From a virus, in the IMG/VR virus record IMGVR_UViG_3300010885_036069, positions 1-64,000 of that record: a stretch of DNA of 64,000 nt. The stretch is one strand, 5' to 3'. The notes beneath the pieces were generated by a model. It saw only the letters and a list, made by a program, of their open reading frames with translations, did no database searches and was not told where the DNA came from. Within the stretch, counting starts at the first letter, position 1. Each line of letters starts with the position of its first letter. The position numbers and the translations under genes are program-made. Positions 13,714-64,000 of this stretch are shown here, piece by piece.

Positions 13714-14034
13714 TCACTCGTCTTCATCGTCGAAGAAGTAGCCCTGATCATTAGCGTTGACTGATGCACCCTGGAAATCGGTTGGTTTCCCTGCCTCTTC
13801 CCAACACTTCTCATGCCAAGTAGTGCAGTCTGGAGTTATGTAGTTTGGTTCCTCGCCATCCTGAAGGCCTTCGAGTGGCCCTTCAATGACGCCGTAACCG
13901 TTATAGGTACCGATCCACAGTTTACCTTCAGGGGTGATGGCAACTGCTTTCGATTGGTACGAGTTGGTACCGACCGCATAGGGCGACCGGATTGAAACTT
14001 GACACTCCTCACAGAGCGTTGAAAAGAATCCCAT
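13714..14034 (-). CDS. Hypothetical protein with N-terminal CxxC
   Basis: 106 aa from ATG 14034 (MGFFSTLCEECQVS). A longer TTG-started frame runs through the leader hairpin and was rejected. Features: CEEC near the start, beta-rich centre (VAITPEGKLWIGTYNGYGV), then CTTWHEKCWEEAG, which could complete a metal site. The C-terminus is acidic. No named family. Confidence 0.65.
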   Translation of the reverse strand: MGFFSTLCEECQVSIRSPYAVGTNSYQSKAVAITPEGKLWIGTYNGYGVIEGPLEGLQDGEEPNYITPDCTTWHEKCWEEAGKPTDFQGASVNANDQGYFFDDEDE

Positions 14035-39350: not shown

Positions 39351-39665
39351 GTTGTGAATAACCTGTGGATATGACTGTGGATATCCTATGGGTAACTGGG
39401 AGAGGCACCCCTGTGGGTAACTTGTCCACAGTCCCGTCATCGTTATCCACAATGTTGTCCACAGGATAAGGCCTATCCTGTGGACAACACGAGGGTTATC
39501 CCCAGCCTTATCCACAGACCTGCTGACTCCGACGGGACTATCCACAGCCTTGTGGATAAGTGATGCCTGTGGATAACTATCGACCTGTGGATATCCATGT
39601 GGATAACCCTGTGGATATGTGGACAACCTGTGGATATGTGGATAACTCTGTGGATAAATGCGGGA
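39351..39665. other. Candidate replication origin: DnaA-box cluster
   Basis: Eleven exact TTRTCCACA boxes (either strand) between 39422 and 39657: 39422, 39443, 39455, 39479, 39508, 39551, 39568, 39598, 39618, 39637, 39649, plus near matches such as TGTGGATAT. The left half holds mostly forward boxes and the right half mostly reverse ones. Lies at a strand switch between a leftward and a rightward operon. No iteron-binding initiator gene is adjacent, so host DnaA may act. Confidence 0.72.
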
Positions 39666-39775
39666 CTCCCAACTTTCCGGGGCCGGTCAGAAAGTGGGGG
39701 GGGACCAATATGGATCATCTAAGCCCCTTTTTCTGTTCGTACAAACGGAACGCCTCTCACTTGCTAGTCCTCTAT

Positions 39776-39804
39776 TTGACTTGTTCTATTTGGACTGTCA
39801 TACT
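39776..39804 (+). promoter_or_regulatory. Sigma-70-like promoter
   Basis: TTGACT (39776-39781), 17 bases, CATACT (39799-39804). Drives the rightward block starting with the deacetylase-like gene. Confidence 0.65.
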
Positions 39805-39849
39805 GCTCGGGAAGTAATTATCCACTATCTACTTGACCAGGAGGTCTTT

Positions 39850-40737
39850 ATGAACATCTATTTCAATAACTCTTACACGGCATCGCTATTTGCCTTTGAC
39901 ACCACCCGCAAGTCTGGCGATGTGGCTCAGTCTCTTCTAGATCGGCCCATTGACGGAATTACGCTTGTCGATCCTGTCGGATTCGCCCAGCGTGCTGAGG
40001 CGCTTATCAATATGGTTCACTCTTTTGACTATTACACCGCCGTCAAGTCGGGCAACCCACGCGACGTGGCGGAATCACAGGGCTTCTCATGGGACGAAGG
40101 AATCTTCCCAATGGCGCTAAATCACACCGCCGGTGTTGTCGCTGCTGCTGATGAAGCACTCAACCTCAACCGAGCGACGGGAACGCTCTCGTCAGGCTTG
40201 CACCACGCTAAGTGGGACCAAGGCGAAGGTTTCTGCACCTTCAATGGGCTTGCTGTTGCAGCTCGCCATGCGGTTGATGCAGGAGCGCGCGTTCTCATCC
40301 TTGACTTTGATGCCCATTGTGGCGGAGGCACCTACAGCCTTCTTGAAGACATCGGTGGTTATGTGACTCACATTGATGTGTCCGTTTCAGGCTTCGACAT
40401 GTACCGCACCGACGGCAATAATAAGTTGGTCATGTCTGAGTCCGGTTCATATGAATGGGATATCAACGCAGCACTTGATTACGCAAGCACCCTTGGACAG
40501 TTTGATTTGTGTCTGTATAACGCCGGCATGGATCCGTTCAACTGCGGTGTGAGCATTGATGAATTGGTCGCTCGGGAGAACGCTGTTGCTGCCTTCTGTC
40601 GCGATCATGTCCCCGCTACGGCCTTTACTTTGGCTGGTGGCTACACCTGGGGCGACGTGGAAATGAGCGAAATCGTTGATCTTCACCGCCTCACAATTAC
40701 GAGCTTTCAGGAGAGTTATGACTGCATCACAAACTGA
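39850..40737 (+). CDS. Histone-deacetylase-like amidohydrolase
   Basis: 295 aa from ATG 39850 with CAGGAGGTC upstream. GLHHAKWDQGEGFCTFNGLA (double His near 118), DFDAHCGGGT near 153 and NAGMD near 226 supply the charge-relay histidines and the three zinc ligands (D, H, D) of the HDAC/acetylpolyamine amidohydrolase fold; GGYTW matches the late glycine turn. It could remove acetyl groups from polyamine, protein or a modified nucleotide. Rare in phages. Confidence 0.78.
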   Translation: MNIYFNNSYTASLFAFDTTRKSGDVAQSLLDRPIDGITLVDPVGFAQRAEALINMVHSFDYYTAVKSGNPRDVAESQGFSWDEGIFPMALNHTAGVVAAADEALNLNRATGTLSSGLHHAKWDQGEGFCTFNGLAVAARHAVDAGARVLILDFDAHCGGGTYSLLEDIGGYVTHIDVSVSGFDMYRTDGNNKLVMSESGSYEWDINAALDYASTLGQFDLCLYNAGMDPFNCGVSIDELVARENAVAAFCRDHVPATAFTLAGGYTWGDVEMSEIVDLHRLTITSFQESYDCITN

Positions 40738-41164
40738 CATTGTTTTACACTTGCTTGATGTTGACTCCATTGAGCGTTTTACCTGCAATTGGGGGATGCA
40801 TCCCGAACCAAGTTTTTGGGATGTTGACGATGACACCTACATCAACGGCATCGTCATGACCATTGACAAGGATTACATCCTTGGTTCTCTGCTTGAAATC
40901 GTTGAGCGGAGTTCCGGCGTGGTCAGTTACCTTGCTGTAGTTGAGTTCCATGGTCCTGTTTTTGTGGGCGTGGAAATCGCAGTACGTGATTGGGATGCCG
41001 AGTGGTACCCCAATCCAGCAGGGACATTCTTTGATCGGAAGGTTTCTCAAGAGCTGGCATGCATTTGGGCAGTGGGGAAGATCCACGGGCTGATTGACTC
41101 CTGGTACGATAGGAAGAAGGCCACCTCGGAACGGACCCTCAATGCAATCACAGAACAAGATTGA
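40718..41164 (+). CDS. Hypothetical protein
   Basis: 148 aa from ATG 40718 with CAGGAGAG upstream; overlaps the previous gene by 20 bases. ERFTCNWGMHPEPSFWDVDD, then DYILGSLLEIVERSSGVVSY and WYPNPAGTFFDRKVSQEL. No family recognised. Confidence 0.6.
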   Translation: MTASQTDIVLHLLDVDSIERFTCNWGMHPEPSFWDVDDDTYINGIVMTIDKDYILGSLLEIVERSSGVVSYLAVVEFHGPVFVGVEIAVRDWDAEWYPNPAGTFFDRKVSQELACIWAVGKIHGLIDSWYDRKKATSERTLNAITEQD

Positions 41165-41459
41165 TTTAGTCGCTGCTGAAATGCGCGCCCGAGTCAATAA
41201 ATTAAAACTTGAGTCAACTATCAGTTCATATGAACGGACCCAGATGGGCCTTTTGGCGACTCGACTTAGCGAGAACCTTCCCTACGGGGATGACTCTGAG
41301 GTTGCCCGTCTTGAGTGGATGCTGATTTTCCTAGAGGGCGATTTTGACTGGAAGAACAAGTACAAGGAAGTTTTCGGTTCTGCACTCAAAGAGCCGAAAA
41401 AGAAACGGGATATGAAGTTTCCCAAGCCACGATTTGAAACAAGATCGGAAATGGCGTGA
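41142..41459 (+). CDS. Small module protein A1 (YKEVFG family)
   Basis: 105 aa from ATG 41142. MRARVNKLKLESTISSYERT, then ARLEWMLIFLEGDFDWKNKY and KEVFG closely parallel the C-terminal part of the protein at 43240-43701. Each paralogue sits directly before a very large protein, with overlapping ends, suggesting a chaperone, adaptor or docking partner. Confidence 0.65.
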   Translation: MQSQNKIDLVAAEMRARVNKLKLESTISSYERTQMGLLATRLSENLPYGDDSEVARLEWMLIFLEGDFDWKNKYKEVFGSALKEPKKKRDMKFPKPRFETRSEMA

Positions 41460-43147
41460 ATTGGACTTCTATCAAGGTGGTGCAGGGCCGAATCGGTGGG
41501 ACTTCCCCATCGGTCGGCTCAGCAGCGCGCATGACGAGAAATCTGAAGCCCGCTGCCTATGATCCGGATTCTGTAGACATTGATAATGATGGTTGGCATC
41601 AAGAAGGAACGACTGCTCAGTGGTTCGGATTGGGTCGTAATCATGTGCTATTTCGCGCTATAGCCCAGGCTTTTCGCAACGAAGGTGGCGACGGTCAGAC
41701 TATGGCCATGCAGCGGCAGTTTATTGATCTTGAGGTACGACGAAATGCGCCGCCAGTTGAGTTGTCAGATGAAGATACTGACATTGCATTTATTGCTGGA
41801 GTTCTAACCAACAACGATCCGACTCGGGATCAACTCAGCGTTGCCGAACTAGCAACTGCTAGGCGATTCTTAAAATATCGCCAAGATAGTCGAAATGAAT
41901 TTGAGCCGAGAAACAAGCCCTTTCAGGATCTTGATGGAGAAATTACTCCGGATTCCGATGGCTCAGTTAAGGGTGCAATCAAGCGACTCATTGAAGCCCG
42001 CAAGAAGCGTCGCGAAGAGCGTGAATCACGATTTCAAGAAGAAGTTGATCGGATGATTGACGATCCAACCAAAGATCTAGCGATTGAATACAAAGATCGC
42101 TACATGACCGACATGAACAACGCTAAAGAATCCTACGATGAAATTTATCGTAGGATTATGGATGATTACGCCAAAAAAGTCCGGCGCCCGAGTGCAAATC
42201 AATGGGAAACCTCTCCAGAAATTCGCGAATGGGAAAGAATGAACCCTGAGCCAAACCACAGACTCTACGATTCTCATTCTGATCTTCTTGATGCTATGGG
42301 TGAATGGAATGATGCTCGATCGGACAAGGTTTGGGAACTTTCGCGTCCGGCATATCAGGCTTGGGTTGCAGAAGTTGAGAAGATGGCGAATGAGGAGTTC
42401 AAGCGAATTCACGGATCCTTACCAGGAGAAGGCACGGAAGACCTCCAAAGTCAAACGGGCTTACTCACGGATATGTTCACTTTTTCGGCAATGGGCCGTG
42501 ACGGCCAGCAATACGATTTCCGAGTTGAGAATGTTGTAGACATGTTTGGATCTCTAATGATCCAAGGCGGAGTTTACGATAAGGATGGAAACAACATTGG
42601 AACCTACGAGCGTTCCTTTAAGGATGAGTCAAGAGATGTTCATCATGATCATCTGATTTTTAATTCAAGTGTTCAAAACCTTGGACTTGGTAGCATTTTT
42701 AATGCTCGCAATGAACAAGTTTACAAACTGATGGGTTTTGAGAGCATTTCTACTGCCGGCTTGTCAAACGATAAGGAATACAAGGGTGCCACTCATTGGC
42801 CCAAGAATGGATTTGATTGGGCAGACGACTGGGAGCGAGACAAGTTCCTTGGTCGAATTCAGACCTTCATTGATTTTTGGGAAAGCGAAAGCGCAAGAAC
42901 TTCAGATCAAAATGTAACTATTGTCCTGAAAAAACAACTTCCAGATGGAACATTCCAAAATGTTTCTATTCCACTCTTTGCTTCTGCGGAAGAAGTTGAA
43001 ATGATTCGCAAAATGGTAGATATGGCTAGATCACAGGACTTTAATGATCCGAACCGATTGGTTGCAGATGATTTTCTTCAGTTCCAAGGAGCAGAAGAGG
43101 CATTTAAGGTCTGGAAAGCAACCATCAATTACACGAGAAGCATTTAA
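41456..43147 (+). CDS. Large modular protein 1 (one DGWHQEGT module)
   Basis: 563 aa. Residues 30-60 carry KPAAYDPDSVDIDNDGWHQE, an EF-hand-like acidic loop followed by EGTTAQWFG. A helical middle (140-330) has many charged residues. The C-terminal 230 residues form a domain with IGTYERSF, VHHDHL, NARNEQVYKLMG, GATHWPKNGFDW and SIPLFASAEE. The same module occurs in the next two large proteins. The domain pattern (turn, then basic RNE, then GFDW) loosely recalls GNAT-like folds. Function unknown. Confidence 0.6.
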   Translation: MNWTSIKVVQGRIGGTSPSVGSAARMTRNLKPAAYDPDSVDIDNDGWHQEGTTAQWFGLGRNHVLFRAIAQAFRNEGGDGQTMAMQRQFIDLEVRRNAPPVELSDEDTDIAFIAGVLTNNDPTRDQLSVAELATARRFLKYRQDSRNEFEPRNKPFQDLDGEITPDSDGSVKGAIKRLIEARKKRREERESRFQEEVDRMIDDPTKDLAIEYKDRYMTDMNNAKESYDEIYRRIMDDYAKKVRRPSANQWETSPEIREWERMNPEPNHRLYDSHSDLLDAMGEWNDARSDKVWELSRPAYQAWVAEVEKMANEEFKRIHGSLPGEGTEDLQSQTGLLTDMFTFSAMGRDGQQYDFRVENVVDMFGSLMIQGGVYDKDGNNIGTYERSFKDESRDVHHDHLIFNSSVQNLGLGSIFNARNEQVYKLMGFESISTAGLSNDKEYKGATHWPKNGFDWADDWERDKFLGRIQTFIDFWESESARTSDQNVTIVLKKQLPDGTFQNVSIPLFASAEEVEMIRKMVDMARSQDFNDPNRLVADDFLQFQGAEEAFKVWKATINYTRSI

Positions 43148-43239
43148 GTATACCCTCCCCGCCACAAAATTTTTTCTTGGCTTCGCCATAAGAGATGCGT
43201 TGGTGGTTACTCAGTAAAACCGTCTATTCTGTAGGGATT

Positions 43240-43701
43240 ATGGCTACCGAAAATACAACTCCGCAACCGGCTCAGCCGACCCCAACTCCCGATCCCACAG
43301 CGGCTGCTCCGCCTGCCCCTCCAGAGGCTCCAGCACCCGCTGAAACGCCGACTGGAGAGCGCAAAGTCATCACTCCGCCGATTGACATGCTCGCAGAGCG
43401 GATGCGTGTACGGGTCAATCAGGGGTTCCTGAAGAGCAACCTTTCATCCGTAGATCGGAACTCGGTCAACCATCTTGCGGGAACACTTGCTCTTCAGAGC
43501 GACGAAAAAGACAAGGCATCAGCACGCCTTGAGTATCTGTTGTGTTTTTTGGATGGTGACATTGACTGGAAAAAACGATATAAGGAAGTTTTTGGTCTTG
43601 AACCGCCGAAGGAACGACGCTCTGTGATCATTCCCGAGTCAGTCCGTAAGCGCGGCAAGATTTCTTCAGCCAAGGGTGTAATAGAGGAACCCGATTACTG
43701 A
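43240..43701 (+). CDS. Small module protein A2 (YKEVFG family) with proline-rich N-terminus
   Basis: 153 aa. Residues 1-50 are proline/alanine-rich and flexible (QPAQPTPTPDPTAAAPPAPP). Residues 60-130 match protein A1: MRVRVNQGFLKSNLSSVDRN, RLEYLLCFLDGDIDWKKRY, KEVFG. The stop overlaps the next start. TAGGGATT serves as ribosome site. Confidence 0.65.
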   Translation: MATENTTPQPAQPTPTPDPTAAAPPAPPEAPAPAETPTGERKVITPPIDMLAERMRVRVNQGFLKSNLSSVDRNSVNHLAGTLALQSDEKDKASARLEYLLCFLDGDIDWKKRYKEVFGLEPPKERRSVIIPESVRKRGKISSAKGVIEEPDY

Positions 43702-46700
43702 TGAGCATCTTTGAGTCTTCTTGGGACAAAATTGAAATCAAGAAGATTCCAGGCTCACTCGGAACGCCAAACGCTCCAAGTGGGCCTGGTCGTCCGCGCA
43801 AACTTATTCCTGCCGTCTTTGACCCAAAGTCTGCCGATGCTGATTCCGATGGTTGGCGACAAGAGGGAACAACTGCTCGCTGGTACGGACTCGTTCCCAG
43901 TAATCCCATCTACAAGACTGTTCTTAGGAACCTAGAGAAAATTAAAGATCCCGAGGGAACCACTGACTGGCTCCCCGTCGGGATGACAAATCTTGATGAG
44001 TGGCTTGGGACTATTGATGAAATTGAAAATCATCGACTAAGGGCGCCAAAAGTTGAACTTTCAACGCGCGAGGCCGACCTTAGTTTTATTGCTGGTCAGG
44101 TAGATCTCAGGGCGCGTCAGGCACAAGCAAGTGGCCGAGAAGCCCCAAATATTGCCAGCGAAACGCGCCGAGCTGCTGCTTGGGTTAAAGGCCGAGAAAT
44201 TCAGCGACGACGCTTTGGAAAGGCTGATGAGTTTTTTTCTGACGCAGATCAGAGCGTCATCGTAAAGGCAGATCAACTCATTGAGGATCTGAAGAAGCAG
44301 CGCATTGAGCGTGACGCCAAGATCAAGCAAATTGTTCAACTTGATCCCGAGGTGGCAAAACTTGCTCGCGAATTTGACCCAACAAAATATGCTGAATCAA
44401 GGATGGAACTTTGGGAATGGTCGGACCTCAACGAAGAAGAATACCCCCCACCGGTAAGAGGTGATTTTGAAACCGAGCGAGATTACTTGGATGCGGTGAC
44501 ACAGTGGAACGCAGAATCTAATGATCGCTGGATTGATTACGAAAATGGCTATCAGGGGGATTCACCAGGTGACGAACTGGACAATCTAGTAGCGAACGTC
44601 TTTGACTTCTCTTTCACCAGCACTGAAGGTGATGATTACTATGTTCAGGTTGACTACATTGACGATGTAACGCAAGAGGGCATGAAATTACACTTCAGTA
44701 TTCGTACTGAAGGAGAGGGCAGTAGTCACGGATACCCCGATGGGACTCAAGTTGGGAATCTTGAACGGTCTTTGAATTTCTACCAAGGAACCGTTTATCA
44801 CGAAATTTTCATGCTTGACGAAGATGTCCGAGGTGGGCAGATTTCTGGAATCATTAACGCCCGCAATGAGCAGATTTATGAGGCAATGGGCATAAGGCAG
44901 ATTTCTGTTTCAGCCACCAGTAGCCAAAGCATGAATGGTGCGACCCACTGGCCGAAGGTTGGTTTTGACTGGGGCGATTCCATGGAGCGGGATTCCTATA
45001 TGAAGGTAATTGAAAAAGCCCTCGATGCGTTCGCATCTGACCTTGAAGATAATCCCGATGAACTGCCATGGGTCATTCTTGCACGCGATGCGAATGACAT
45101 AAAAGTTCCCATTTTTGCTTCCAGAGAAGAAGCCGAAATTGTCCGAGCGTTAGTTGAGCGAGCCAAGACTGAACAGTTTGATGACCCTGATCGACTAACT
45201 GCCGGCGACTTAGTTAACTGGGCTGGTGCCGAGGCTTGGTTCAAGCAAAGTCGAGTAACTGGACATTTAGTAAAGCCGGTTGGATCTAGCGGTAAGAACC
45301 CAGCAGTTAAGTGGCTAATCATTGAGCCTGAATACAAGGCCGTTGTTAAGCCAAATAAACCCAATCTCCCCAACACCCCAAAGAAGCCGAGCGTTGGCGG
45401 TGGCGCACCAAAACCTCGAGCCTTGAAACCTGCGGTATTTGATCCTCGTTCTGTGGACGTAGATAACGATGGCTGGCATCAGGAGGGAACTACTGCTGCT
45501 TGGTTTGGGGCCGGTCTTAATAATCCAGTGGTAAAGGAACTCCAAGACGCTCTTGGAAAACTTGGTGATGATGATCGGGAGTCTTCATACAATGCGATGA
45601 TTGCAACTGGCGGATATGGGATCTTTGAGGGCGCTCCAACTCCAGAAGCCTCAACCGCAGAGGCTGATCTTGCGTGGCTTGGTGGAAAAATTGTTCTCAA
45701 TGAGCAGCAACGGGAATCTTGGATGAGTGGCCCTCCCCCGCCACGTGTTGGTGGTGCTGATCGCTCACTTGAGGCCCAGTGGCTTCATGGGCGAGAAGAA
45801 GCACGGCGTCGTGGTGGAGTTCGGGAACAAGTCATCCCAACTCCAGAAATTGAAAAACTTGACGACGAAACCGTTTTTCAAGCAATTGATAAAGCCATTA
45901 CCGCCCGCCAAGAACGGCGCGCAATTCTTGATGCGAAAACACGAATTAAGTCCGATGATGCGGTATCTAGCGAATCAATAGAAAAAGCACAAAACTTTAA
46001 AGTTGATGATTATCCACCCGCCGATGGCTACGAAGTCGCTGACTATACCGAATGGTCAAAGACTTCTTACGAACCGCGTCCGGAAGCGATGGACTATCCG
46101 CTTGGGGGGACGCCGGAAGAATTTGAAGCATATGAAGCCAGCGTGGCGGAAACTATGCGATGGTCTGCTGATTCTTGGGATGCTTGGATTGAGTTTCAAA
46201 GAGAGCATGAAGATCTTGCAAATTCCGACCTGAGGGGAGCTACTAAGGAACTCTTTGAGTTTGAGTTCATTGGAAACAATGGGAAAACGTACTCAACCAG
46301 AGTTGATCGTGTTGTCCAATCCGCCATTGAACTTGATTCCGGTGAAGAAGGCACAATGTTTGGAATCAATGGAGTCTTCCTGGATGAAGATGGAAATCAA
46401 GTTGGATTTTTTGATCGTTCGTTTTATCCAGACCTTGGGATGGTAACCCACAATCATCTTGTTATTGACCAAGGGGAACGTGGTTCTCAGGTTTCAGGAA
46501 TTTTCAATTCTCGGAATGAAATCCTTTACCAAGAAATGGGTTACCACACCATCGGCGTAGGGGCGATGAGTGGGGCGGGTTACAACGGTGCTACCCACTG
46601 GCCCAAAGTTGGCTTTGACTGGGTGGACGAGGACCAAAGGAGCCTCACTCTCGGGGCGGTTGAAGACGCTTTGACTGAATTCGCTCTGGCAATCAAGGAG

Positions 46701-48551
46701 GATCCAGATGCACTTCCAATGCTCATTAAGATCATTGAAGATAACGATAATCCAGACATAACGACCGAAGTTAGGATTCCGATCTTTGCTTCTCGGGAAG
46801 AAGCCGAATCTGTTGCACTTTTAATCGCAATTGCGCGAGATCAAAATCTTGAAGACTCGGATCGACTAACCGCTGGTGATTTTGTTAACTGGTCTGGAGC
46901 TGAACTTTTTTTTCAGGAAAAGGGTATTCAGATTGAGTTAAGTCGCTCTATTGGTGGTCAAAAAGAATCTGCTGATGTTCCGGATGTCACGTCAGATGCT
47001 GGTATTGCAGTTGGCGGAATGAGCGCTGAAGAAATCCAAGAAAAAAATAAGAAAATTCTTAATGAGTTGGAAGTGGCTGGTTCCAGTTTTGGACGTATTG
47101 ATGAGGATTACAAGAGAGCGCAAGAACAAGCCGCGGCTGAAGGACGAGTTAACTCCCTTCATGTCCCGAAAACCCGTGAAGAAGCAATAGAAGCACGAAG
47201 AGAAACAACATCAGCCACAATCACTGCTGTTCGTGCTTACTTGGAAACCGGTGAACTCACTCCATGGAATGGCCGTGTTGGTATTAGTGAGTCTGATGCA
47301 GGGGCCTTAGACAACATGCCGCAAGCCTTACGGGAACTAATACTCACATCTACTGATGATGATTTAAACGACATGATCCTCAGTCAAGCAACACGAATGC
47401 AGGAAGAAGTGAAGGCGGGACGTATCCGTGTCAACGTGACAGATTCACGATTAGGTGCTGTTGTTGAAGATGGAGAATATAAGACGGTTTTTTCTGGCGC
47501 TCTAACGGATAATGCAAGAGTTGCTGGACGCGAGCAAATAGATGCTCGTATTTTGGGTATTCCAAGTGACATAGCGCCAGAACTTCACCCCGCATCCGGC
47601 TATGCCATCACCAGAGAACAAGGTCAGGCGGTGCGGGGAGATGGAGATGTTGAAGATACGGAACTCGCGTCCAAGTTGACGGGTATTGGTGGAACCTACG
47701 GAGATGTTGTATTTGAGTTGAAGCCCGAGGTCGCTGACCGAACATCGTGGAGTCTTGGTGACAGTATGAATGCCAAGGGTCCCGGTGTCGTCCGAATGGA
47801 TGAGGATGATCCCGAATACATCGCAGCCGTAATGATCAACGGAAGCGGCACGAAGAAACCACAAAATGTTGTACTCAACATGCTGGAAAGTGAACGCAAC
47901 GAAACGACATTGACAGCATCCGTCAGCAGACTCGGCGGGATTCCCGCTGCCAAAAGTCCAAATGAAGTTTCAGGCGCCGGTCATGACTACATCGAAACTA
48001 ACATTGCTGGAAGTTTCAATCTTGACGAAGTAGATTCAATTCGAGTCCCAAGCATTGAAACACTGAAGAAATCTGCCCTCCCTGTCGAAAGTGATGCCGA
48101 TGATTTGATTGACGGGAGATTTATGGAAAGGCAAAAGTTGGAGGCTGCCGGTATGACCGAAGGGCAGATTGCCTACATACTTGAGTTGAAAGAATCAGAT
48201 CCCAGTGCTTACAGGGAATATCTTCAAGACCAAAGACTCCAAAGCCTTGTTTACGCAGAACAAGTAGATAAGTTCGGAAAAAGCCTGTCCGAGAAGCATG
48301 GAGTGAGGCTTCTCATCGGGGATGAAGGGCGCAGTCCCGAGCAAGAAGTAGAGAAGCGACTTGAAAAAGTAAAACCCTTTTATGACACCCTTGCTAGAGA
48401 TGTTGATGCAGCGATAGCCAGTCGAGACGAAGATGCTCGTCGGATTGTTGAAGGTTTGCCAACTTTGGCCCAAGAAAGTCAAGCGGCACGAGAGGCTGAA
48501 GAAGCCCGAATTGCTGCCGGTGGCGGCTTAGACGTTGGAGGTCTTGGTTAA
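43701..48551 (+). CDS. Large modular protein 2 (two modules plus C-terminal effector-like domain)
   Basis: 1616 aa. Module 1: acidic loop KSADADSDGWRQEGT near 40-55 and GATHWPKVGFDW near 412. Module 2 repeats it: SVDVDNDGWHQEGT near 580 and GATHWPKVGFDW near 963; between them the linker KPNLPNTPKKPSVGGGAP. The last 500 residues differ: FELKPEVADRTSWSLGDSMN, then HDYIETNIAGSFNLDEV and IRVP, a pattern resembling DUF3626/ADP-ribosyltransferase-like domains. Likely a multi-domain virion or injected protein. Confidence 0.6.
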   Translation: MSIFESSWDKIEIKKIPGSLGTPNAPSGPGRPRKLIPAVFDPKSADADSDGWRQEGTTARWYGLVPSNPIYKTVLRNLEKIKDPEGTTDWLPVGMTNLDEWLGTIDEIENHRLRAPKVELSTREADLSFIAGQVDLRARQAQASGREAPNIASETRRAAAWVKGREIQRRRFGKADEFFSDADQSVIVKADQLIEDLKKQRIERDAKIKQIVQLDPEVAKLAREFDPTKYAESRMELWEWSDLNEEEYPPPVRGDFETERDYLDAVTQWNAESNDRWIDYENGYQGDSPGDELDNLVANVFDFSFTSTEGDDYYVQVDYIDDVTQEGMKLHFSIRTEGEGSSHGYPDGTQVGNLERSLNFYQGTVYHEIFMLDEDVRGGQISGIINARNEQIYEAMGIRQISVSATSSQSMNGATHWPKVGFDWGDSMERDSYMKVIEKALDAFASDLEDNPDELPWVILARDANDIKVPIFASREEAEIVRALVERAKTEQFDDPDRLTAGDLVNWAGAEAWFKQSRVTGHLVKPVGSSGKNPAVKWLIIEPEYKAVVKPNKPNLPNTPKKPSVGGGAPKPRALKPAVFDPRSVDVDNDGWHQEGTTAAWFGAGLNNPVVKELQDALGKLGDDDRESSYNAMIATGGYGIFEGAPTPEASTAEADLAWLGGKIVLNEQQRESWMSGPPPPRVGGADRSLEAQWLHGREEARRRGGVREQVIPTPEIEKLDDETVFQAIDKAITARQERRAILDAKTRIKSDDAVSSESIEKAQNFKVDDYPPADGYEVADYTEWSKTSYEPRPEAMDYPLGGTPEEFEAYEASVAETMRWSADSWDAWIEFQREHEDLANSDLRGATKELFEFEFIGNNGKTYSTRVDRVVQSAIELDSGEEGTMFGINGVFLDEDGNQVGFFDRSFYPDLGMVTHNHLVIDQGERGSQVSGIFNSRNEILYQEMGYHTIGVGAMSGAGYNGATHWPKVGFDWVDEDQRSLTLGAVEDALTEFALAIKEDPDALPMLIKIIEDNDNPDITTEVRIPIFASREEAESVALLIAIARDQNLEDSDRLTAGDFVNWSGAELFFQEKGIQIELSRSIGGQKESADVPDVTSDAGIAVGGMSAEEIQEKNKKILNELEVAGSSFGRIDEDYKRAQEQAAAEGRVNSLHVPKTREEAIEARRETTSATITAVRAYLETGELTPWNGRVGISESDAGALDNMPQALRELILTSTDDDLNDMILSQATRMQEEVKAGRIRVNVTDSRLGAVVEDGEYKTVFSGALTDNARVAGREQIDARILGIPSDIAPELHPASGYAITREQGQAVRGDGDVEDTELASKLTGIGGTYGDVVFELKPEVADRTSWSLGDSMNAKGPGVVRMDEDDPEYIAAVMINGSGTKKPQNVVLNMLESERNETTLTASVSRLGGIPAAKSPNEVSGAGHDYIETNIAGSFNLDEVDSIRVPSIETLKKSALPVESDADDLIDGRFMERQKLEAAGMTEGQIAYILELKESDPSAYREYLQDQRLQSLVYAEQVDKFGKSLSEKHGVRLLIGDEGRSPEQEVEKRLEKVKPFYDTLARDVDAAIASRDEDARRIVEGLPTLAQESQAAREAEEARIAAGGGLDVGGLG

Positions 48552-48553
48552 TT

Positions 48554-51500
48554 ATGGTTAAGCAGCAAATGATTGAAGTCGCAAAAACTTCAGATGCCAA
48601 AATCTATTTCATAATCAATCCAAAAGACATTGACAGTGATGGCGTAGTCATTAGGGGTAAAGAAACGGAGTATGTCCGATTTTGGTCGTATGTGACTCGC
48701 CTTGGTTCTGAACTTGTTCCGTTAACCAATAATGAATTTCTTAAATCTTTATGGATGTCAAATCTAAAAAGAAACAGCAAAAACTGGGCAAAAGCAAGCG
48801 AGGACTGGACTAAGAAGTTTCTCAATAGGGAAGTTGAATTCACCAGAGAAGAACTGAAATCAATAAGAACAAGTTTGATTCCAACTCCAATTGGTGAAAC
48901 TTCCAGTGGGGTCAAAAAGCAAGTTAGGCGTCGAGTCCTTTCTAAGAAAATCCTCCTTGAACAGATTGAACTCAAGGCCGTCAACAAGCCAAATCTCCCC
49001 AATACACCGAGCAAGCCAGGTTTGGGCGGGGGCGCTCCAAGCGCTCGCGTACTAAAGCCTGCGGTGTTTGATCCTCGTTCAGTAGATGTTGATAGCGACG
49101 GATGGCATCAAGAAGGCACTACCGCAGCCTGGTTTGGTGCTGGACTAAACAATCCGATTGTTGAATCTCTTAGGTCAGAAATGAGGCTAATCCAAGGGGC
49201 CGGAAATGCAGATTTAACCCATATGGCCAATTTGAACCAGTCGTACTTTAGTGATGCGCCCCCACCGCTGGGTTCAACCCTTGAAGCGGATTTATCTTGG
49301 CTTGGGGGCAAGCTCCTTAAAGCAAATGTGACGGACCCCGGCATGATAGAGGGTCGGTGGCTCGTTGGACGAGAGCAGGTTCGCAAGCAGAGTGGAATTA
49401 GAGAGGAGATCCTTCCAACTCCAGACATTTCTGAACTCAGCGATTCCGACATTATGGAGAATCTTGAGCAGATAATTGATGCTCGCAAGAAGGCGAGAGT
49501 TGCTAAAGACGCTAAAACTCGCATTATGGCCTCCGACAATTTGAGCGATGAGGCCGCAGGCGCCGCTAAAGATTTTGACTTTGATGCGATCAACCCTGAC
49601 GATGCCGATGAAGTTGCCCGAGCAATGTTCAATTTTGAATTTGTTGGGATGGATGATCAAAAGTATTCAGTTGAATTGGGTAAGAGTTATCTCCAGAGAG
49701 ATGATTATCAAGGCAGGCGCCTCACGATTAGCGGAAAAATTTTCAAAGACGGGAAAGAAGTTGGATTCTTTGACCGGACTATCTATTTAGACAAAAAAAC
49801 AGTTGCCCATGACCATATGCATCTTGACGAAGAGGTTCGCGGAGCGCAGATTTCAGGAATTATTAATTCTCGGAATGAATTGGTTTATCGCTCTTTGGGA
49901 TGCGATGCAATATCAACCAAAGCAACTAGCAATATCGGATACAACGGAGCAACACATTGGCCCAAGGTTGGATTTGACTGGGAGGATGATTATGCCCGTG
50001 AAGTTTATTTTGCTTCTATTGATTCTGCGTTGACTAAATTTGCTCTAGGAATTTCTGAAGAACCAGACGCATTGCCAATGATGATGAAATATGATGACAG
50101 TACTGGTTCATTTGTAAATCTTCCAATTTTTGCATCGCGAGAAGAGGCTGAAGAGGTTGCTCTTCTCTTAACCCTTGCTCGGACTCAAAGTATGGATGAT
50201 CCAGATCGACTTACATCTGGAGATTTAGTGAACTGGTCTGGTGCTGAATCATGGTTCCAAATCAACAATATTGAAGGAAATCTAGTTCGCAACATTGGTG
50301 GGCAGGAGGACATTGCGGATGTCCCTGAAGTCGCTGATATTCCCGAAGTTTCCAAACCCGAAATTCCGGCCAAAATGTCAAAACGCCCTAACTGGCTCAC
50401 TATGGAAATATTTAGTGAAGATCTTGAGGTGGCGATTTCTGAAATTCCAGAACAGAAATTGAAAAATGAAAAAGTACAAAAACTTATAGCGGATCTTAGA
50501 TATAGAGGTGAAAGTGCCTTCTTTTTTGGGGACTCCAATGGCAATGATACCTTTTTCCCTGGTGATCCAGAAGCGGATGAACCAGAAAAGGGCGCTCCTT
50601 TTGCAGAAAATTTAAACTTTGTTATTGATGAAGTTATCAGCGTAGGAGCAGATTCTATGAACTCTTATGTTAATTGGCTTACTGCAAGGGAACAGCAGAC
50701 TTATCGAATGGAACTTTTCGCTTCTGGGGAGCGGGATGAATTATATGACTTTGGAACAAAAGATGGTGATTTACTCAGTGTTGATGTGGACAAAGTTGTA
50801 ACAATGGCGCTTGATCCCACCGCTGATGAAGATCGCATCAAAGAGAGTGAGATTGAACTTCTTGATCTCCAAAGCAAGATGGTTGAAAGACTTGGGCGAC
50901 CAGGTGCAGAGTGGAGACATATTTCTTTCATTAACGGCAGTGGCAAAGAAGTCACCATGGTTAGGGGCATTGATTTTAACAAAGAGCAAGAAATGAAGGC
51001 TGCAATTGCACATGGCATTGGAAGTCTCATGGCTGACGAACTTAGTGTTGAGGAAATGATTGTCATGATTTACTTTATTGGTGCAGGATATGAGGCTGAA
51101 ATTTCTGATGAAACCCTTAATGACTTTGTGAGCAATTTCGGGAAAGGAGGCAAGGATCGACTTGCAATGACGCCTGAAGGCAGGGTTGAGCGGGGATGGC
51201 CTGGAACCAATAGCGATCAAGCAATTTCTCCCCTTTCGCCAGATTACAAAAAATTTATGGGTGAGTATATTGCCGATCAGTTGCTTGGAGCGTGGGCGCA
51301 TTCATCAAATAGCGGACTTGCGCTTGGAATTCAAAGTGCGGTAGAGCAAATTTTTGGTCAAAAGGATGGTGTTCGTTCATTTAAAATTTCAAACGATGAT
51401 CCTGAAATTACGAATGTGTATGAAGAGTTTGTAAAAGCGCAATACTTAATAACTCAGACAATGTTCAGAGATGCTGGGATAACAAAAATAACTACCCATC

Positions 51501-52048
51501 GAGGTATGATGTGGCACTCCAGCAAGGATAATCCGCTTGATTCCAATGCTGTCGGTAGGAATGCTTTTCTAGTTATTGAGGATGCGGAAGTAGCACTTCA
51601 GCCCGTTTCGTCAACTTCGTTCAACAGGAAAATTGCATATGGCTTTGCTGGAATGCGTGGTGAGGATACTTTGTCCGTGGTGGTCCATTCCGATACACCA
51701 GTTGAAAGGATTCTCTCTTCAGCATTTACGGGGATCGGGTGTCTAATCGAGAACGAACTAACGCTAATTGGCGGTGGAGACACAAGATTTAATCTTTCTG
51801 CAAGTTCCGGTATGCGTATTGATGCTGCCAAGGGAAATCTTATTGGAGCAGTTATTGACAGGTTCCGCAATGGTGAAACAATTGAAATTAGTGCTGCTGA
51901 GCGACTTAAAAATGCTGGCTATAGTGAGGAAGAAATCAAAAAAATCCAAGATTACATGACTAGGAATTCTGGGAAATTTCCCAATATTCTCCAAATTAGG
52001 GATATTCTCAGTGGCAAAATGCCTGAAAGTAACTTTGACTTAATGTAA
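48554..52048 (+). CDS. Large modular protein 3 with C-terminal ADP-ribosyltransferase-like domain
   Basis: 1164 aa. A unique N-terminus (1-150) is followed by linker KPNLPNTPSKPGLGGGAP, the acidic loop SVDVDSDGWHQEGT near 175 and GATHWPKVGFDW near 465. The C-terminal 250 residues show the three ADP-ribosyltransferase motifs in order: THRGMMW near 980 (Arg), PVSSTSFNRKIAYGF near 1018 (S-T-S) and ENELTLIGGG near 1067 (ExE). It would transfer ADP-ribose from NAD to a host protein, as T4 Alt does. Motif order is convincing; activity is inference. Confidence 0.68.
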   Translation: MVKQQMIEVAKTSDAKIYFIINPKDIDSDGVVIRGKETEYVRFWSYVTRLGSELVPLTNNEFLKSLWMSNLKRNSKNWAKASEDWTKKFLNREVEFTREELKSIRTSLIPTPIGETSSGVKKQVRRRVLSKKILLEQIELKAVNKPNLPNTPSKPGLGGGAPSARVLKPAVFDPRSVDVDSDGWHQEGTTAAWFGAGLNNPIVESLRSEMRLIQGAGNADLTHMANLNQSYFSDAPPPLGSTLEADLSWLGGKLLKANVTDPGMIEGRWLVGREQVRKQSGIREEILPTPDISELSDSDIMENLEQIIDARKKARVAKDAKTRIMASDNLSDEAAGAAKDFDFDAINPDDADEVARAMFNFEFVGMDDQKYSVELGKSYLQRDDYQGRRLTISGKIFKDGKEVGFFDRTIYLDKKTVAHDHMHLDEEVRGAQISGIINSRNELVYRSLGCDAISTKATSNIGYNGATHWPKVGFDWEDDYAREVYFASIDSALTKFALGISEEPDALPMMMKYDDSTGSFVNLPIFASREEAEEVALLLTLARTQSMDDPDRLTSGDLVNWSGAESWFQINNIEGNLVRNIGGQEDIADVPEVADIPEVSKPEIPAKMSKRPNWLTMEIFSEDLEVAISEIPEQKLKNEKVQKLIADLRYRGESAFFFGDSNGNDTFFPGDPEADEPEKGAPFAENLNFVIDEVISVGADSMNSYVNWLTAREQQTYRMELFASGERDELYDFGTKDGDLLSVDVDKVVTMALDPTADEDRIKESEIELLDLQSKMVERLGRPGAEWRHISFINGSGKEVTMVRGIDFNKEQEMKAAIAHGIGSLMADELSVEEMIVMIYFIGAGYEAEISDETLNDFVSNFGKGGKDRLAMTPEGRVERGWPGTNSDQAISPLSPDYKKFMGEYIADQLLGAWAHSSNSGLALGIQSAVEQIFGQKDGVRSFKISNDDPEITNVYEEFVKAQYLITQTMFRDAGITKITTHRGMMWHSSKDNPLDSNAVGRNAFLVIEDAEVALQPVSSTSFNRKIAYGFAGMRGEDTLSVVVHSDTPVERILSSAFTGIGCLIENELTLIGGGDTRFNLSASSGMRIDAAKGNLIGAVIDRFRNGETIEISAAERLKNAGYSEEEIKKIQDYMTRNSGKFPNILQIRDILSGKMPESNFDLM

Positions 52049-56946: not shown

Positions 56947-58872
56947 GTGTCAGTTATCAGTTCTGATTTTGTTTCTAGTTACGCATCCCAAACCCCTCCT
57001 TGGGGATTCGGTGGAATGGGTGAAATTGTTTACCTGCGTACTTATAGTCGTTCAATTCCTGAATTGGGTCGCAACGAAATGTGGCCTGAAACCATTCAAC
57101 GATGCATTAACGGCGCTGTTGAAATTGGAGCAGAACTTTCACAGGAAGAAGCGGAAAAACTCTTTGACCATATGTTCAATCTTCGCTGCTCACTTAGCGG
57201 TCGTTCCCTCTGGCAGCTCGGTACGCAACTGGTCAAGAAGTTCAACGGAACATCACTCAACAACTGTTATTTCACCTCTATTGAATCCGTAGAGGACTTT
57301 GAACTTCTCTTTGATTATCTGATGCTTGGCGGTGGTGTTGGATTCTCCGTAGAGCGATCAAAGATTCATGAACTTCCAAAGGTGAAGTCTGGAGTCACAA
57401 TTACTCACGAGCGCACCAACGATGCTGACATCATTGTTCCTGACTCACGCGGAGGATGGCGTCGTCTTCTTCATTCAGTTCTCAAGAGTTACTTCACGAC
57501 GGGGAAGAGCTTCTCATACAGCACCCTTTTGATTCGTGAGTTCGGCGCACCTCTCAGCACCTTTGGTGGGACCGCTTCAGGACCAGGTGCATTGATTGAT
57601 GGAATTTCCGATATCTGCAAAGTCATGGAGAATCGAGTCGGAAAGAAACTTCGATCAATTGATGTTCTTGATATTTGCAACATTATCGGTCGCATTGTTG
57701 TAAGCGGTTCTTCACGCCGTTCTGCTCAGATTGCCATTGGCGATCCGGACGACATTCTTTTTCTTCGTGCCAAGAATTGGGGAACGGGGAACATCCCTGG
57801 CTGGCGAGCAAACTCAAACAACAGCATCTATGCAGATGCTTATGAAGAAATCATGCCTGAACTTTGGAAGGGTTACGACGGTTCAGGAGAACCTTACGGA
57901 CTTTTGAATCGTCGTCTTGCTCGCTCTTACGGTCGTGTCGGTGAGCGCAAATCAGATCCATCAGTTGAGGGATTCAACCCCTGCGCTGAAATTGCCCTTG
58001 CTGACGGAGAGTCTTGCAATCTTGCAACAATCTTCTTGCCATCAATTGAGTCATTTGAACAGTTCTGTGAAATTTCAGAACTTCTTTATAAGGTTCAGAA
58101 GGCAATCACGAGTCTTGATTATCCATACGAGAAGACAACAACGATTACTCGCAAGAATCGTCGCCTTGGTCAGTCAGTAACTGGAATCCTTCAATGTTCT
58201 GAGGAACAGTTGGCGTGGCTCTCACTCGGCTATGAAAACCTTCGTGCTTTTGATGTTGCCTACTCAGCGGAGCATGGAGTTCCAGAGTCAATTCGACTTA
58301 CCACAGTTCAGCCGTCAGGAACGCTTTCGCTCCTCCCGGGTCAGACTCCTGGCATTCATCCAGCATTTGCTCGTTACTACATTCGTCGTGTTCGGTTCTC
58401 TAGTGCTGATCCCCTCGTGGAGTCATGCCGTAAGCGCGGCTACAACGTGGTTCCCGAGGTCGGTATTGATGGGCGGGAAGATCACACAAAGTGGGTTGTT
58501 GAATTTCCCGCAGAGTCCCCAGAGAATGCAGTCCTCGCTAAGGATATGACCGCAATTGATCAGTTGGAATGGGTAAAGCGTCTTCAGGCTGAGTGGGCGG
58601 ACAACGCCGTTTCGGTGACGGTCTATTACCGCAAGGAAGAACTTTCAGAAATCAAAGATTGGCTTTCAAAGAACTACGACAAGCACATCAAGAGCGTTTC
58701 ATTCCTTCTTCATTCTGACCATAACTTCCCACTCCCCCCATACGAGGAAATCAGCAAGGAGGAGTACGAGCGGATGCTGTCAAAGGTTGACTTCTCAATT
58801 TCAATTGCTCCGAATGCATCTGGTGACCTTCTTGATGAGTCCTGTGCAACAGGGGCTTGTCCTGTACGGTAG
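56947..58872 (+). CDS. nrdJ: Class II (cobalamin-dependent) ribonucleotide reductase
   Basis: 641 aa. NNCYF near 107 and ESCNLA near 358 are the reducible cysteine pair; FNPCAEI near 345 holds the radical cysteine and glutamate; the C-terminal CATGACP is the shuttle pair. The layout matches monomeric Lactobacillus-type adenosylcobalamin-dependent reductase acting on ribonucleoside triphosphates. It supplies dNTPs without a second subunit or oxygen. No B12 riboswitch was seen upstream. Confidence 0.9.
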   Translation: MSVISSDFVSSYASQTPPWGFGGMGEIVYLRTYSRSIPELGRNEMWPETIQRCINGAVEIGAELSQEEAEKLFDHMFNLRCSLSGRSLWQLGTQLVKKFNGTSLNNCYFTSIESVEDFELLFDYLMLGGGVGFSVERSKIHELPKVKSGVTITHERTNDADIIVPDSRGGWRRLLHSVLKSYFTTGKSFSYSTLLIREFGAPLSTFGGTASGPGALIDGISDICKVMENRVGKKLRSIDVLDICNIIGRIVVSGSSRRSAQIAIGDPDDILFLRAKNWGTGNIPGWRANSNNSIYADAYEEIMPELWKGYDGSGEPYGLLNRRLARSYGRVGERKSDPSVEGFNPCAEIALADGESCNLATIFLPSIESFEQFCEISELLYKVQKAITSLDYPYEKTTTITRKNRRLGQSVTGILQCSEEQLAWLSLGYENLRAFDVAYSAEHGVPESIRLTTVQPSGTLSLLPGQTPGIHPAFARYYIRRVRFSSADPLVESCRKRGYNVVPEVGIDGREDHTKWVVEFPAESPENAVLAKDMTAIDQLEWVKRLQAEWADNAVSVTVYYRKEELSEIKDWLSKNYDKHIKSVSFLLHSDHNFPLPPYEEISKEEYERMLSKVDFSISIAPNASGDLLDESCATGACPVR

Positions 58873-58877
58873 TGATC

Positions 58878-59669: not shown

Positions 59670-59670
59670 C

Positions 59671-60796: not shown

Positions 60797-62140
60797 TCAG
60801 TCGGGTTGTGCATCAAACGAAACGCTCACAAATGACTCTGGGCGCTTGACCGCAAGGGCAAGACGCTCTTCGGCAAGAACGACGATTGCGTTCCGGACGA
60901 AGAAGTCAGCGTGCTGTTCGCTGATACGGATGGTCGCCTGCTCACGATCATAGAGCTGGGCGCCGGTGCCGAATGCGCCGACAAGGGCTGTGCCTTCGGG
61001 CATTGCGGGGGTGTCAACTACTGGCATGCGCCAGATGCGTGGTTCGCCACCAAGTGCAACTGAAACGGCAACGAGGTACTGACCATTGGTGTCCTTGGTC
61101 AGTTCGATGTCTTCCCAATCGTTGGGGTGAAGAACGACGCCAGTTGGCTCGTAGTAGGCAAGGAACGCCAGAGTTGCTGCACGACGGATCGCATCAGCCT
61201 TGGTGTCCGGAACCGGTGAGGTAGCGCCTGAGGACCAGTCGTAGGTCTGAACACCAGGGGTGTTGAGAACGCCGAGGAGGTTCTCGCCAGTGCCATCACC
61301 CTCAAGGATTTGGTAATCCTCTTGGAGGCGAAGGCCGTAGAGAAGCTCGTTGTCAATGATGGAGCGGAGCTGCGGCTCATCAGCGAGAACGTTGCGGTGT
61401 GCTGCTTCCCAATGGGCAAGGGTCCGGATTGGAGCCTGATGACCTTCAAAGACCATGCTTGACTGTGGCTTTGCGGCGTAGTTTCCACCATCGCGTTCAG
61501 CAACAGTGCTGGCTGCGTTGTTGGCCGTGGTGCCGGGGGTGGTAAAACCAATCATGCGGAAGTATTCAATGACCGCAGCAGTGGTTGTACGCACTGGGAA
61601 GAGGTCACGAACACGACGTGTACGCATGGGAGGAACTACCATCGGGTCACGCTGGATGGTGCCGAATGAACCAGGGGTGCCGGTGGGAAGAGCGCTATAA
61701 ACGTCCTTCTGACCGTACTGACCTGAGGTGAGATCGGCACGAGCAATGGTGAATGGGGAAGGCATGTTGGCGCCATTGCGGCCACCATCAAGGGACTTGA
61801 ACTCTGCTGAGTCAAGGAAAGCCTGACCAAGTGTCTTTGCTGAGTAACCAGCAAGTGAACCCTGGCTTGATGCCCAAGCGTCAACAACGCTGGCGACTGA
61901 TTCGCCTGCGGGCTGGCTGCCCCACTGTGCGGCTGACTTCATTTCTTCAAGACCCTCAATGAGGCCCTTGATTTCCTTGATGTCAGACATGTTGCGGTCA
62001 AATGCTGACTTCTGCTCAGCGGACACAACAACAGTGCCATCTTCAATCTTAAATGAATCAGCAATTTCCTTATTGCTGGCCATCTTTTCACGCATTGCTG
62101 ACTGAAGTTCGTTCAGTCGGCCTTCGTCATCGAAAGACAT
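60797..62140 (-). CDS. HK97-fold major capsid protein
   Basis: 447 aa from ATG 62140 with CAGGAG upstream. N-terminal 100 residues are helical and acidic, a probable scaffold-like delta region. The capsid core has PMVVPPMRTRRVRDLFPVRT, LAHWEAAHRNVLADEPQLRS, LLYGLRLQEDYQILEGDGTG, NLLGVLN and RAATLAFLAYYEPTGVVLHP, all hallmarks of HK97-type capsid proteins. It builds the icosahedral head. The upstream partner genes and portal lie beyond the right edge. Confidence 0.93.
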   Translation of the reverse strand: MSFDDEGRLNELQSAMREKMASNKEIADSFKIEDGTVVVSAEQKSAFDRNMSDIKEIKGLIEGLEEMKSAAQWGSQPAGESVASVVDAWASSQGSLAGYSAKTLGQAFLDSAEFKSLDGGRNGANMPSPFTIARADLTSGQYGQKDVYSALPTGTPGSFGTIQRDPMVVPPMRTRRVRDLFPVRTTTAAVIEYFRMIGFTTPGTTANNAASTVAERDGGNYAAKPQSSMVFEGHQAPIRTLAHWEAAHRNVLADEPQLRSIIDNELLYGLRLQEDYQILEGDGTGENLLGVLNTPGVQTYDWSSGATSPVPDTKADAIRRAATLAFLAYYEPTGVVLHPNDWEDIELTKDTNGQYLVAVSVALGGEPRIWRMPVVDTPAMPEGTALVGAFGTGAQLYDREQATIRISEQHADFFVRNAIVVLAEERLALAVKRPESFVSVSFDAQPD

Positions 62141-62452: not shown

Positions 62453-62669
62453 TGTACTTTTTCCTCATGGGTTCAAGGGCAGCGTTAATTTCCAAAGCAC
62501 GCTCTTCACTAATGCCTAGTGCTTCAAGTGCAGGATTCTTTGGATCAATTATTTTCATAATGTCATCAAAGGTGATGTCGTCAACTGGGACATACTCAGG
62601 ACTGTCGTCCTCGTACTCCTTATTTGGTTGACGAACCTTGAGTCGTGGCGCTCGGGATTTCTTGCTCAT
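62427..62669 (-). CDS. Small acidic-basic protein
   Basis: 80 aa: basic start (MSKKSRAPRLKVRQPNKEYE), acidic centre (PVDDITFDDIMKIIDP), helical end. It overlaps the large upstream gene stop by 4 bases. Between that protein and the capsid gene, a scaffold-like role is possible. Confidence 0.58.
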   Translation of the reverse strand: MSKKSRAPRLKVRQPNKEYEDDSPEYVPVDDITFDDIMKIIDPKNPALEALGISEERALEINAALEPMRKKYNAKIAKKA

Positions 62670-64000
62670 TTGAGAGTTGCTCCTGATAATGCTCCGGATG
62701 CTGAGTCTAGACCTTCACCGAAGGGGGCGCGTCTGTGAGCAACCCAGAGAATCGCCTGCAACTGAGGAAGGTCAAGAACATCAAGGGCTTTCAGGCCACG
62801 CTTTTCTCGAGCTTTGTTGATGACCTCAAGTCGCTCATTAAACCGTTCAAGGGTCTGCTTAAGCGCAATTTGAAAGATCGGATAGGTTCCAACCGTTCCT
62901 TCTGAAACCGAAGTTGGATTTTCAAAGATCGTCTTTCCGGCTTCTCCAGTGATCTTTTTCCCCGTGCCGATGCTTGACATGTGGACATCAATTGTTGTGT
63001 CTCGGCTTTCAAACGGGAACATGATGTTGTTATAGAAAGATCTAACTTTATGCTTTCCGCCAAGAGCGGAGTCAAGATAATTCGGAGATACATCTTCAGC
63101 CGCTAGTGAAAGAGCCTTCCGGAGATTGTCCCAGGACTGCCACTGGACCGCCTCGTATACGGGTTCACCTTCAAGGATAGTTTTTTCGGTATTCAGGATT
63201 ACCTGATTGGGTCGCCAATCTTTGCCCTCATGATCAATCGTGAGTTGCGATCCGTATCCACGAAGACCAAGAGCGAGTACATCAAGTCCCTTCTCGTCAG
63301 ATAGGAGTTCCTTTACGCTCTTACCCTTGAAACTGCTGGCATCCACATCTAGGAACTTAGGAAGATTTGCCGTATTTCCGGAGGCGTATTCCTTCATCTT
63401 CGTTGTGTAATCGGCAACTCTCATCGCATCAACGAGGGCGATGAACTCATCGTCAATGACTCTGTTCTGATCAATGAAGTCAGTCACCCACTTGGCCTGC
63501 CATACATTTTGATCCCAAGAACGACTTGGGGAGAGAACTGCCATCATTCCAGCAGCCTGCCAAGACTCAATTCCTAGTGTCTTGGCCATATCATCAATCA
63601 TCTTGCGAGCCTCGGGATACCAAGTAAGTCCATCTTCTAGGTCTTGTTCGGTAACAGACTCAAGAAGGGCATCAAATCTTGCTGCAATGTCGTCTACATT
63701 ACCGACATCTTTCCCGTAGGTCTTGTTGAGGATTTCAGTCAATTTGTCAATGTGTTCTTGACTGATCCTGTCAACGGCAAATTCATCAAATCCGTCAGTT
63801 TTTGGCTTGTTGTCACGAATCTGAACTCTAGGTTCTTGCTGAATTTGCTCAATTTCTCTATCGCTAGAGGCGATGCGATTAATCTCACGGAGTTCAAAGG
63901 TGAGGTCGGCATATTCGCCACCAGTACCACCGCTGCCTAGAAATGCGGTGTCCATTTTCCCAGCCTCTAGGTCATCAAGATTTGTGATTGCAATTTGATC
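62666..64000 (-). CDS. Large protein cut at right edge (helical DUF7178-like domain)
   Basis: The frame is open to base 64000 beyond the ATG at 63955, so the start lies outside. At least 444 aa are visible. LTWYPEARKMIDDMAKTLGI, MMAVLSPSRSWDQNVWQAKW and KHKVRSFYNNIMFPFESRDT, then TIDVHM look like a phage domain (DUF7178-like) with glycosylase-type helices. Its place just upstream of the capsid gene suggests a portal- or MuF-linked head protein with an attached enzymatic domain. Confidence 0.55.
   Translation of the reverse strand, partial: DQIAITNLDDLEAGKMDTAFLGSGGTGGEYADLTFELREINRIASSDREIEQIQQEPRVQIRDNKPKTDGFDEFAVDRISQEHIDKLTEILNKTYGKDVGNVDDIAARFDALLESVTEQDLEDGLTWYPEARKMIDDMAKTLGIESWQAAGMMAVLSPSRSWDQNVWQAKWVTDFIDQNRVIDDEFIALVDAMRVADYTTKMKEYASGNTANLPKFLDVDASSFKGKSVKELLSDEKGLDVLALGLRGYGSQLTIDHEGKDWRPNQVILNTEKTILEGEPVYEAVQWQSWDNLRKALSLAAEDVSPNYLDSALGGKHKVRSFYNNIMFPFESRDTTIDVHMSSIGTGKKITGEAGKTIFENPTSVSEGTVGTYPIFQIALKQTLERFNERLEVINKAREKRGLKALDVLDLPQLQAILWVAHRRAPFGEGLDSASGALSGATLK

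Follow-up and report, generated by a model that had tools for sequence, protein, structure and literature searches.

The DNA studied here comprises bases 1–64000 of the 116,661-bp virus record IMGVR_UViG_3300010885_036069 and is referred to as the window; coordinates marked "record" apply to the whole record. At positions 41142–52048, the window holds an array in which four copies of one module of approximately 550 residues are distributed over three co-directional genes. This array probably encodes polyvalent effectors of a contractile-tailed phage of the actinobacterial type that are carried in the virion and injected, with tandem units of a DxDxDGxxxEGT loop (hereafter the tag) and a GNAT-fold domain fused to ADP-ribosyltransferase (ART)-type ends. 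The proteins were filed under polyvalent proteins because GNAT, ART, zincin and zeta-toxin domains are what that class typically contains in large phage proteins linked to the head. An earlier note, made from the letters of the window, had likened the array to both polymorphic toxins and injected phage effectors, and the latter proposal is supported by the GNAT fold in combination with ART-type ends, by the sharing of the tag and, in relatives, by synteny with the head locus. The following genes constitute the array (aa, amino acids):

41142..41459, + strand: P1, small protein of 105 aa, paralogue of P3; it pairs with a module protein, likewise in relatives L011 and L052
41480..43147 (alternative GTG start 41456), + strand: P2, single-module protein of 555 aa, grouping with single-copy relatives in the tree
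43240..43701, + strand: P3, small protein of 153 aa with a Pro/Ala-rich N-terminus, paralogue of P1
43701..48551, + strand: P4, 1616 aa, arranged as tag-GNAT, linker, tag-GNAT, DUF3626-like end
48554..52048, + strand: P5, 1164 aa, arranged as N-terminal domain (P5N), linker, tag-GNAT, R-S-E ART

The previously noticed four module copies in three genes (one in P2, two in P4 and one in P5) were borne out by pairwise BLASTP comparisons, which yielded E-values of 2e-22 to 3e-74 and identities of 32–34% to the P2 copy, far beyond chance. Each module is composed of the tag, charged helices and the GNAT-fold domain; the stretches GATHWPKxGFDW and FAS.EE.E were also found in the modules. Likewise confirmed was the presence of paralogous small proteins ahead of two of these genes (P1 versus P3: 45% over 89 aa, E 7e-22). 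The coupling of the genes is tight: the stop of P1 is overlapped by the GTG start of P2 (41456), that of P3 shares one base with the start of P4, and a gap of two bases separates P4 from P5. C-termini, said to differ between copies, do so for P4 and P5; P2 possesses no extra C-terminus and ends with its module. The linker KPNLPNTPxKPxxGGGAP, described as joining the modules, exists and precedes two of them only, namely the second module of P4 and that of P5:

45357..45410, + strand: linker between the two P4 modules, KPNLPNTPKKPSVGGGAP
48986..49039, + strand: P5 linker, KPNLPNTPSKPGLGGGAP

Within the modules, GNAT-like domains were located as follows:

42467..43144, + strand: GNAT-like domain of P2 with canonical motif A Q-N-L-G-L-G; model confidence about 90, GNAT matches in the PDB
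44592..45290, + strand: GNAT-like domain of P4 module 1, altered motif A R-G-G-Q-I-S
46245..46964, + strand: GNAT-like domain of P4 module 2, altered motif A R-G-S-Q-V-S
49619..50308, + strand: GNAT-like domain of P5, altered motif A R-G-A-Q-I-S

According to structure prediction, the module domain is a GNAT fold. The AlphaFold model of P2, computed from 13 sequences, reached a mean predicted local distance difference test (pLDDT) value of 74, with the C-terminal 220 residues mostly at 80–95 and residues 1–49, including the tag, below 50; moreover, it contains long charged helices. A Foldseek search with this model against the PDB returned 1083 matches with E <= 10, the top ones being GNATs (probability 1.00, best E 8.7e-4), and among the PDB matches listed, all those with telling titles were N-acetyltransferases. 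Fold matches in BFVD included acetyltransferases of phages as well as a protein labelled "phage head morphogenesis". A known tail-fibre or tape-measure fold, named earlier as an observation that would speak against effectors, did not appear in the module fold search, which recovered GNATs instead. A tail fibre or tape measure was ruled out by this fold; the tail block, with a large gene of its own (record 95918), is located elsewhere.

GNAT-like domains related to that of the module occur in large proteins of related phages, where Pfam GNAT matches were sub-threshold, and Microbacterium phage Jera carries one as a fusion with its minor capsid (Phage_min_cap2) protein. Searches with the module yielded only a weak partial match in Jera among named phages and no match in bacterial genomes. 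Full modules were present in only two of the 50 records searched, in each case as a single copy accompanied by the small partner gene and devoid of an extra C-terminus (small protein and module protein at 8198–8497 and 8504–10738 in L011, and at 13632–13937 and 13941–16130 in L052). In the module tree, (P4M1,(P4M2,P5M)) group together with support of 97/94, and P2 groups with the single-copy relatives with support of 83/84. Because of this grouping, P2 probably represents the ancestral-type copy, the counterpart of the single-copy relatives, and the other three modules probably arose later in this lineage. In relative L011, a 516-aa protein encoded just upstream of the capsid gene (L011:95-1645) contains, by eye, a distant GNAT-type segment ending GTYVWARVGF, which Pfam did not confirm.

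Three further domains were delimited in P4 and P5:

47469..48443, + strand: P4C, C-terminal domain of P4, DUF3626-like putative ART-type domain; weak Pfam match, Foldseek lead, homologues in 29 distinct loci
48554..48943, + strand: P5N; in relatives, its homologue is the small gene next after the P4C domain
51251..51808, + strand: P5C, R-S-E type ADP-ribosyltransferase-like domain of P5 with R983, S1020-T-S1022 and E1066-N-E1068

P4C is a probable, possibly altered, ART-type domain. The DUF3626 protein SopF belongs to the ARTs and has an I-Y-E triad (PMC6682159, PMC10333799), and the likeness of P4C to the DUF3626 family including SopF consists of weak sequence and fold similarity together with Y and E positions that are conserved in the P4C family (23/26 and 22/26, respectively). 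P5N, comprising the first 150 residues of P5, is a separate domain with a family of its own, which overturned the first impression of a degenerate loop copy. P5C is a putative R-S-E ART-like domain as deduced from motif and homology. It matches Bacillus phage SP-15 (E 4e-8) as well as Rhodococcus, Streptomyces and Euzebya plasmid proteins and contains, in order, R, S-x-S/T and E/Q-x-E; the R, S and (E/Q)xE residues were aligned and kept in all six P5C-type sequences, including those of SP-15 and the plasmid proteins, a pattern that characterizes R-S-E ARTs. P5 thus combines at least two unrelated biochemical classes in one polypeptide, namely the GNAT fold and the R-S-E ART motif domain. The same R-S-E ART-like domain was observed beside a NUDIX domain in a 1119-aa plasmid protein of Streptomyces virginiae (L175:659-4018).

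P4C homologues were detected in 29 distinct loci, and in 25 of these a P5N homologue follows directly. Since loci of relatives were fetched via capsid or P4C similarity (the capsid-protein search brought in 80 of the 284 related loci) and P5N never served as bait, this adjacency was not selected for. Furthermore, the capsid gene is located 4.5–9.2 kb downstream of P4C on the same strand in 21 of the 29 loci. P4C in relatives either stands alone (about 330 aa) or terminates a longer protein, the largest exceeding 2300 aa; architectures include tag-X-P4C followed by P5N (G005) and P4C followed by P5N-tag-X (G045), and P5N itself is fused to cargo in two phages. Based on the adjacency counts and these varied architectures, the P4C/P5N junction is constant in relatives with varying flanks, which in the window are the tag-GNAT units and the R-S-E ART. 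As judged from sequence comparison, P4C/P5N is a conserved head-locus cassette around which other domains were swapped. The C-terminal variation looked for among relatives hence exists, in the form of domain shuffling around this fixed junction. A giant protein of a relative (L085:2-9673, 3224 aa in the stretch) features DnaJ, zeta toxin, NUDIX, sigma-70 region 4-like and GNAT-like domains.

These findings bear on the polymorphic toxin layout, in which the module would be a constant delivery trunk, the C-termini swappable toxins directed against competitor cells, and immunity genes would be located nearby. The repeated constant part with differing ends, the ART-type nature of these ends and the small genes alongside resemble such a system; however, the constant part is itself an enzyme fold and not a delivery trunk, Pfam finds no MuF or other known trunk in P2, P4 and P5, and two relatives carry the module without any toxin end. 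Moreover, the P4 end and P5N are a conserved pair in relatives whereas upstream partners vary, P5N with its cargo fusions is unlike an immunity protein, and no immunity gene is evident. A polymorphic toxin system is therefore very unlikely, and this part of the earlier proposal was not supported.

The tag precedes the GNAT-like domain in all four modules:

41576..41611, + strand: tag loop of P2, DIDNDGWHQEGT, low-confidence/disordered in the model
43836..43871, + strand: tag loop of P4 module 1, DADSDGWRQEGT
45456..45491, + strand: tag loop of P4 module 2, DVDNDGWHQEGT
49085..49120, + strand: tag loop of P5, DVDSDGWHQEGT

Its earlier description as part of the module applies to all four copies; the loop is not confined to the module and was also found in many large proteins, including head-locus ones, of related phages. 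The window and the fetched loci together contain 472 distinct open frames that reach 300 aa; in these, the pattern D-x-D-x-D-G-x(2-4)-E/D/Q-G-T occurred 31 times, compared with no occurrence in 20 shuffles. Outside the modules, xxERP and a stretch rich in proline usually come after the tag. In the same phage, a 1305-aa head-locus protein (record 65545-69462, - strand; L008:1545-5462) carries two tags and consists of two similar halves (24–29% identity); one tag and one zincin-like HExxH motif are present in each half. This protein had neither a Pfam match nor a tblastn match in named phages. A regular-expression search for the tag in stretches from six named phages gave no match, and tblastn with the tag peptide retrieved nothing, although low-complexity filtering limits that search. 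We take the spacing of the tag to recall Excalibur/EF-hand calcium loops. A prohead-protease site within the tag was considered and dropped because the residues before E/D are not conserved between the modules and other tags. Our best guess is that the tag most likely serves as a spacer or as a loading/processing element marking the N-terminal edge of cargo units. A bolder and rather doubtful version holds that it may be a transferable loading/processing signal of a modular cargo system, such that any domain behind a tag would be head-carried in this phage clade. If true, this would explain the recurrence of the tag in unrelated large head-locus proteins and its repetition before every duplicated module.

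Two landmarks place the array relative to the head genes:

60797..62140, - strand: major capsid protein (context; bait for relatives in the capsid-based locus search)
62666..64000, - strand: start of the head-locus large-protein block, which runs past the window end

Two other proteins of the head locus were observed. An 825-aa protein (record 69775-72252, - strand; L008:5775-8252) shows weak PI3/PI4-kinase and HipA-like kinase matches and is possibly another delivered enzyme. An 883-aa protein (window 62666 to record 65317, - strand) matches DUF7178 and contains a CPPGT..FT..C motif, which is also present twice in a 538-aa protein (record 72417-74033).

Own gene calls and Pfam matches revealed a head block on the - strand comprising the major capsid protein, large proteins, a prohead serine protease (S78) and a portal-MuF protein, and a terminase on the + strand of the same record. 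Accordingly, the portal-terminase packaging genes sought as companions of polyvalent proteins (portal-MuF, S78 protease and terminase) are encoded in the record, the array itself being displaced. The tail block on the + strand includes a sheath gene; compared with annotated sheaths, its product shares 37% identity with that of Gordonia phage ChisanaKitsune and 33% with that of Brevibacterium phage Cantare. Since Brevibacterium and Gordonia phages are also the nearest named phages by capsid protein (about 49%), the host is likely actinobacterial. B12-type ribonucleotide reductase, PhyH-type dioxygenase and methyltransferase genes (window 56947-60207) are located between the array and the capsid gene; in relative L011, similar reductase/dioxygenase/methyltransferase-type genes sit between the capsid gene and the single-module gene. 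A histone-deacetylase-family protein (window 39658-40737; Pfam E 8e-21) is encoded just upstream of the array operon. A sigma-70-type promoter scan gave a signal no better than that in shuffles.

Several observations weigh against virion-carried, injected effectors. The phage is represented by a metagenomic record, and in this genome the array is located approximately 9 kb from the capsid gene on the opposite strand. This position, apart from the head genes and past the reductase-dioxygenase-methyltransferase island, would suit intracellular host-takeover enzymes that are made during infection and remain unpackaged, like T4 ModA/ModB rather than Alt; such a role is quite unlikely given that the tag is common to a head-locus protein and the P4C-P5N cassette resides in the head locus of most relatives. 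Further counterpoints concern the ends. P4C differs from the DUF3626 family in that its Pfam match (E 0.015, 14.8 bits) falls below the gathering cut-off of 27, for which reason it is named DUF3626-like only, and in that the window copy carries W at the Y position, the E being kept. The predicted P4C model is poor (pLDDT 50); fold matches, including a DUF3626 protein at Foldseek rank 2 obtained with this low-confidence model, are hence leads only, and a PDB sequence search with the P4C profile returned nothing useful. The ART-type call for P4C accordingly relies on weak matches and that for P5C on motif and homology: Pfam and a PDB sequence search with the P5C profile gave no match, and a comparison by Hhalign of P5C with a VIP2-type ART annotated in a phage was negative, the profiles being shallow.

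The last counterpoint concerns enzymatic competence. The CoA-binding motif Q/R-x-x-G-x-G/A is intact in P2 and both single-module relatives (QGLGIG/QGLGVG); P4 module 1, P4 module 2 and P5 carry RG(G/S/A)Q(I/V)S, with Q for the first G and S for the second. Because three of the four GNAT copies have thus replaced a motif-A glycine and P4C carries W for Y, some enzyme domains of the array may be inactive. Together with the long charged helices of the P2 model, these changes could suggest degenerate enzyme modules that now act as internal structural or scaffold-like head proteins with the repeats as spacers, a highly improbable reading in view of the canonical P2 motif, the R, S and E retained in P5C and the many other invariant residues retained in the modules.

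For the preferred explanation, injected polyvalent effectors, the following course is proposed. The tagged GNAT unit was duplicated and fused onto the conserved head-locus cassette, composed of the DUF3626-like ART-type domain and the P5N protein, and also onto a second ART of the R-S-E type. The large array proteins would be synthesized late, enter the head and leave it together with the phage DNA. Once inside the new host, their ART and GNAT domains might modify host proteins, leading to blunted defence or redirected host machinery.

Polyvalent proteins are presumed to travel in the phage head and to be injected along with the DNA. Passages of Iyer et al. 2017 (PMC5512222) describe a GNAT family whose members typically adjoin an ART within one polypeptide, as well as a protein in which an ART is repeated in 12 copies. 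The array resembles the polyvalent proteins of phages and conjugative elements treated there in being large and multidomain with unrelated enzymatic domains (GNAT, ART, zincin, zeta toxin and others), and differs in repeating a GNAT-like unit with its own tag loop. These passages also set polyvalent proteins apart from the layout of a trunk with variable C-terminal toxins, a division that the conserved P4C/P5N junction fits; the clade-wide DxDxDGxxxEGT tag was not found in the searched passages of PMC5512222. ARTs were reported to be frequently head-packaged in contractile-tailed phages, i.e., myoviruses (PMC9503650). With T4 Alt and other head-packaged ARTs (PMC9503650 and passages of PMC5512222) the array shares the R-S-E ART motif and the contractile-tailed phage type, head packaging being proposed here; the likeness is one of motif, and the array ART differs in its fusion to P5N and a GNAT module. 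Like MuF polymorphic toxins (PMC5576092), the array would represent head-linked phage proteins with variable enzymatic ends, and the Jera GNAT-like domain is borne by a minor capsid protein; unlike them, the array proteins P2, P4 and P5 lack a MuF domain according to Pfam, and their repeated part is an enzyme fold. The earlier impression that no described phage system is so arranged holds for the tandem tag-GNAT array, which was found only here, and not for polyvalent proteins with GNAT and ART domains, which are described in the cited passages of PMC5512222. The kind itself is thus known; unusual here are the tandem arrangement of tag-GNAT units, the occurrence of an R-S-E ART within a protein of this sort and a tag that is spread across the clade.

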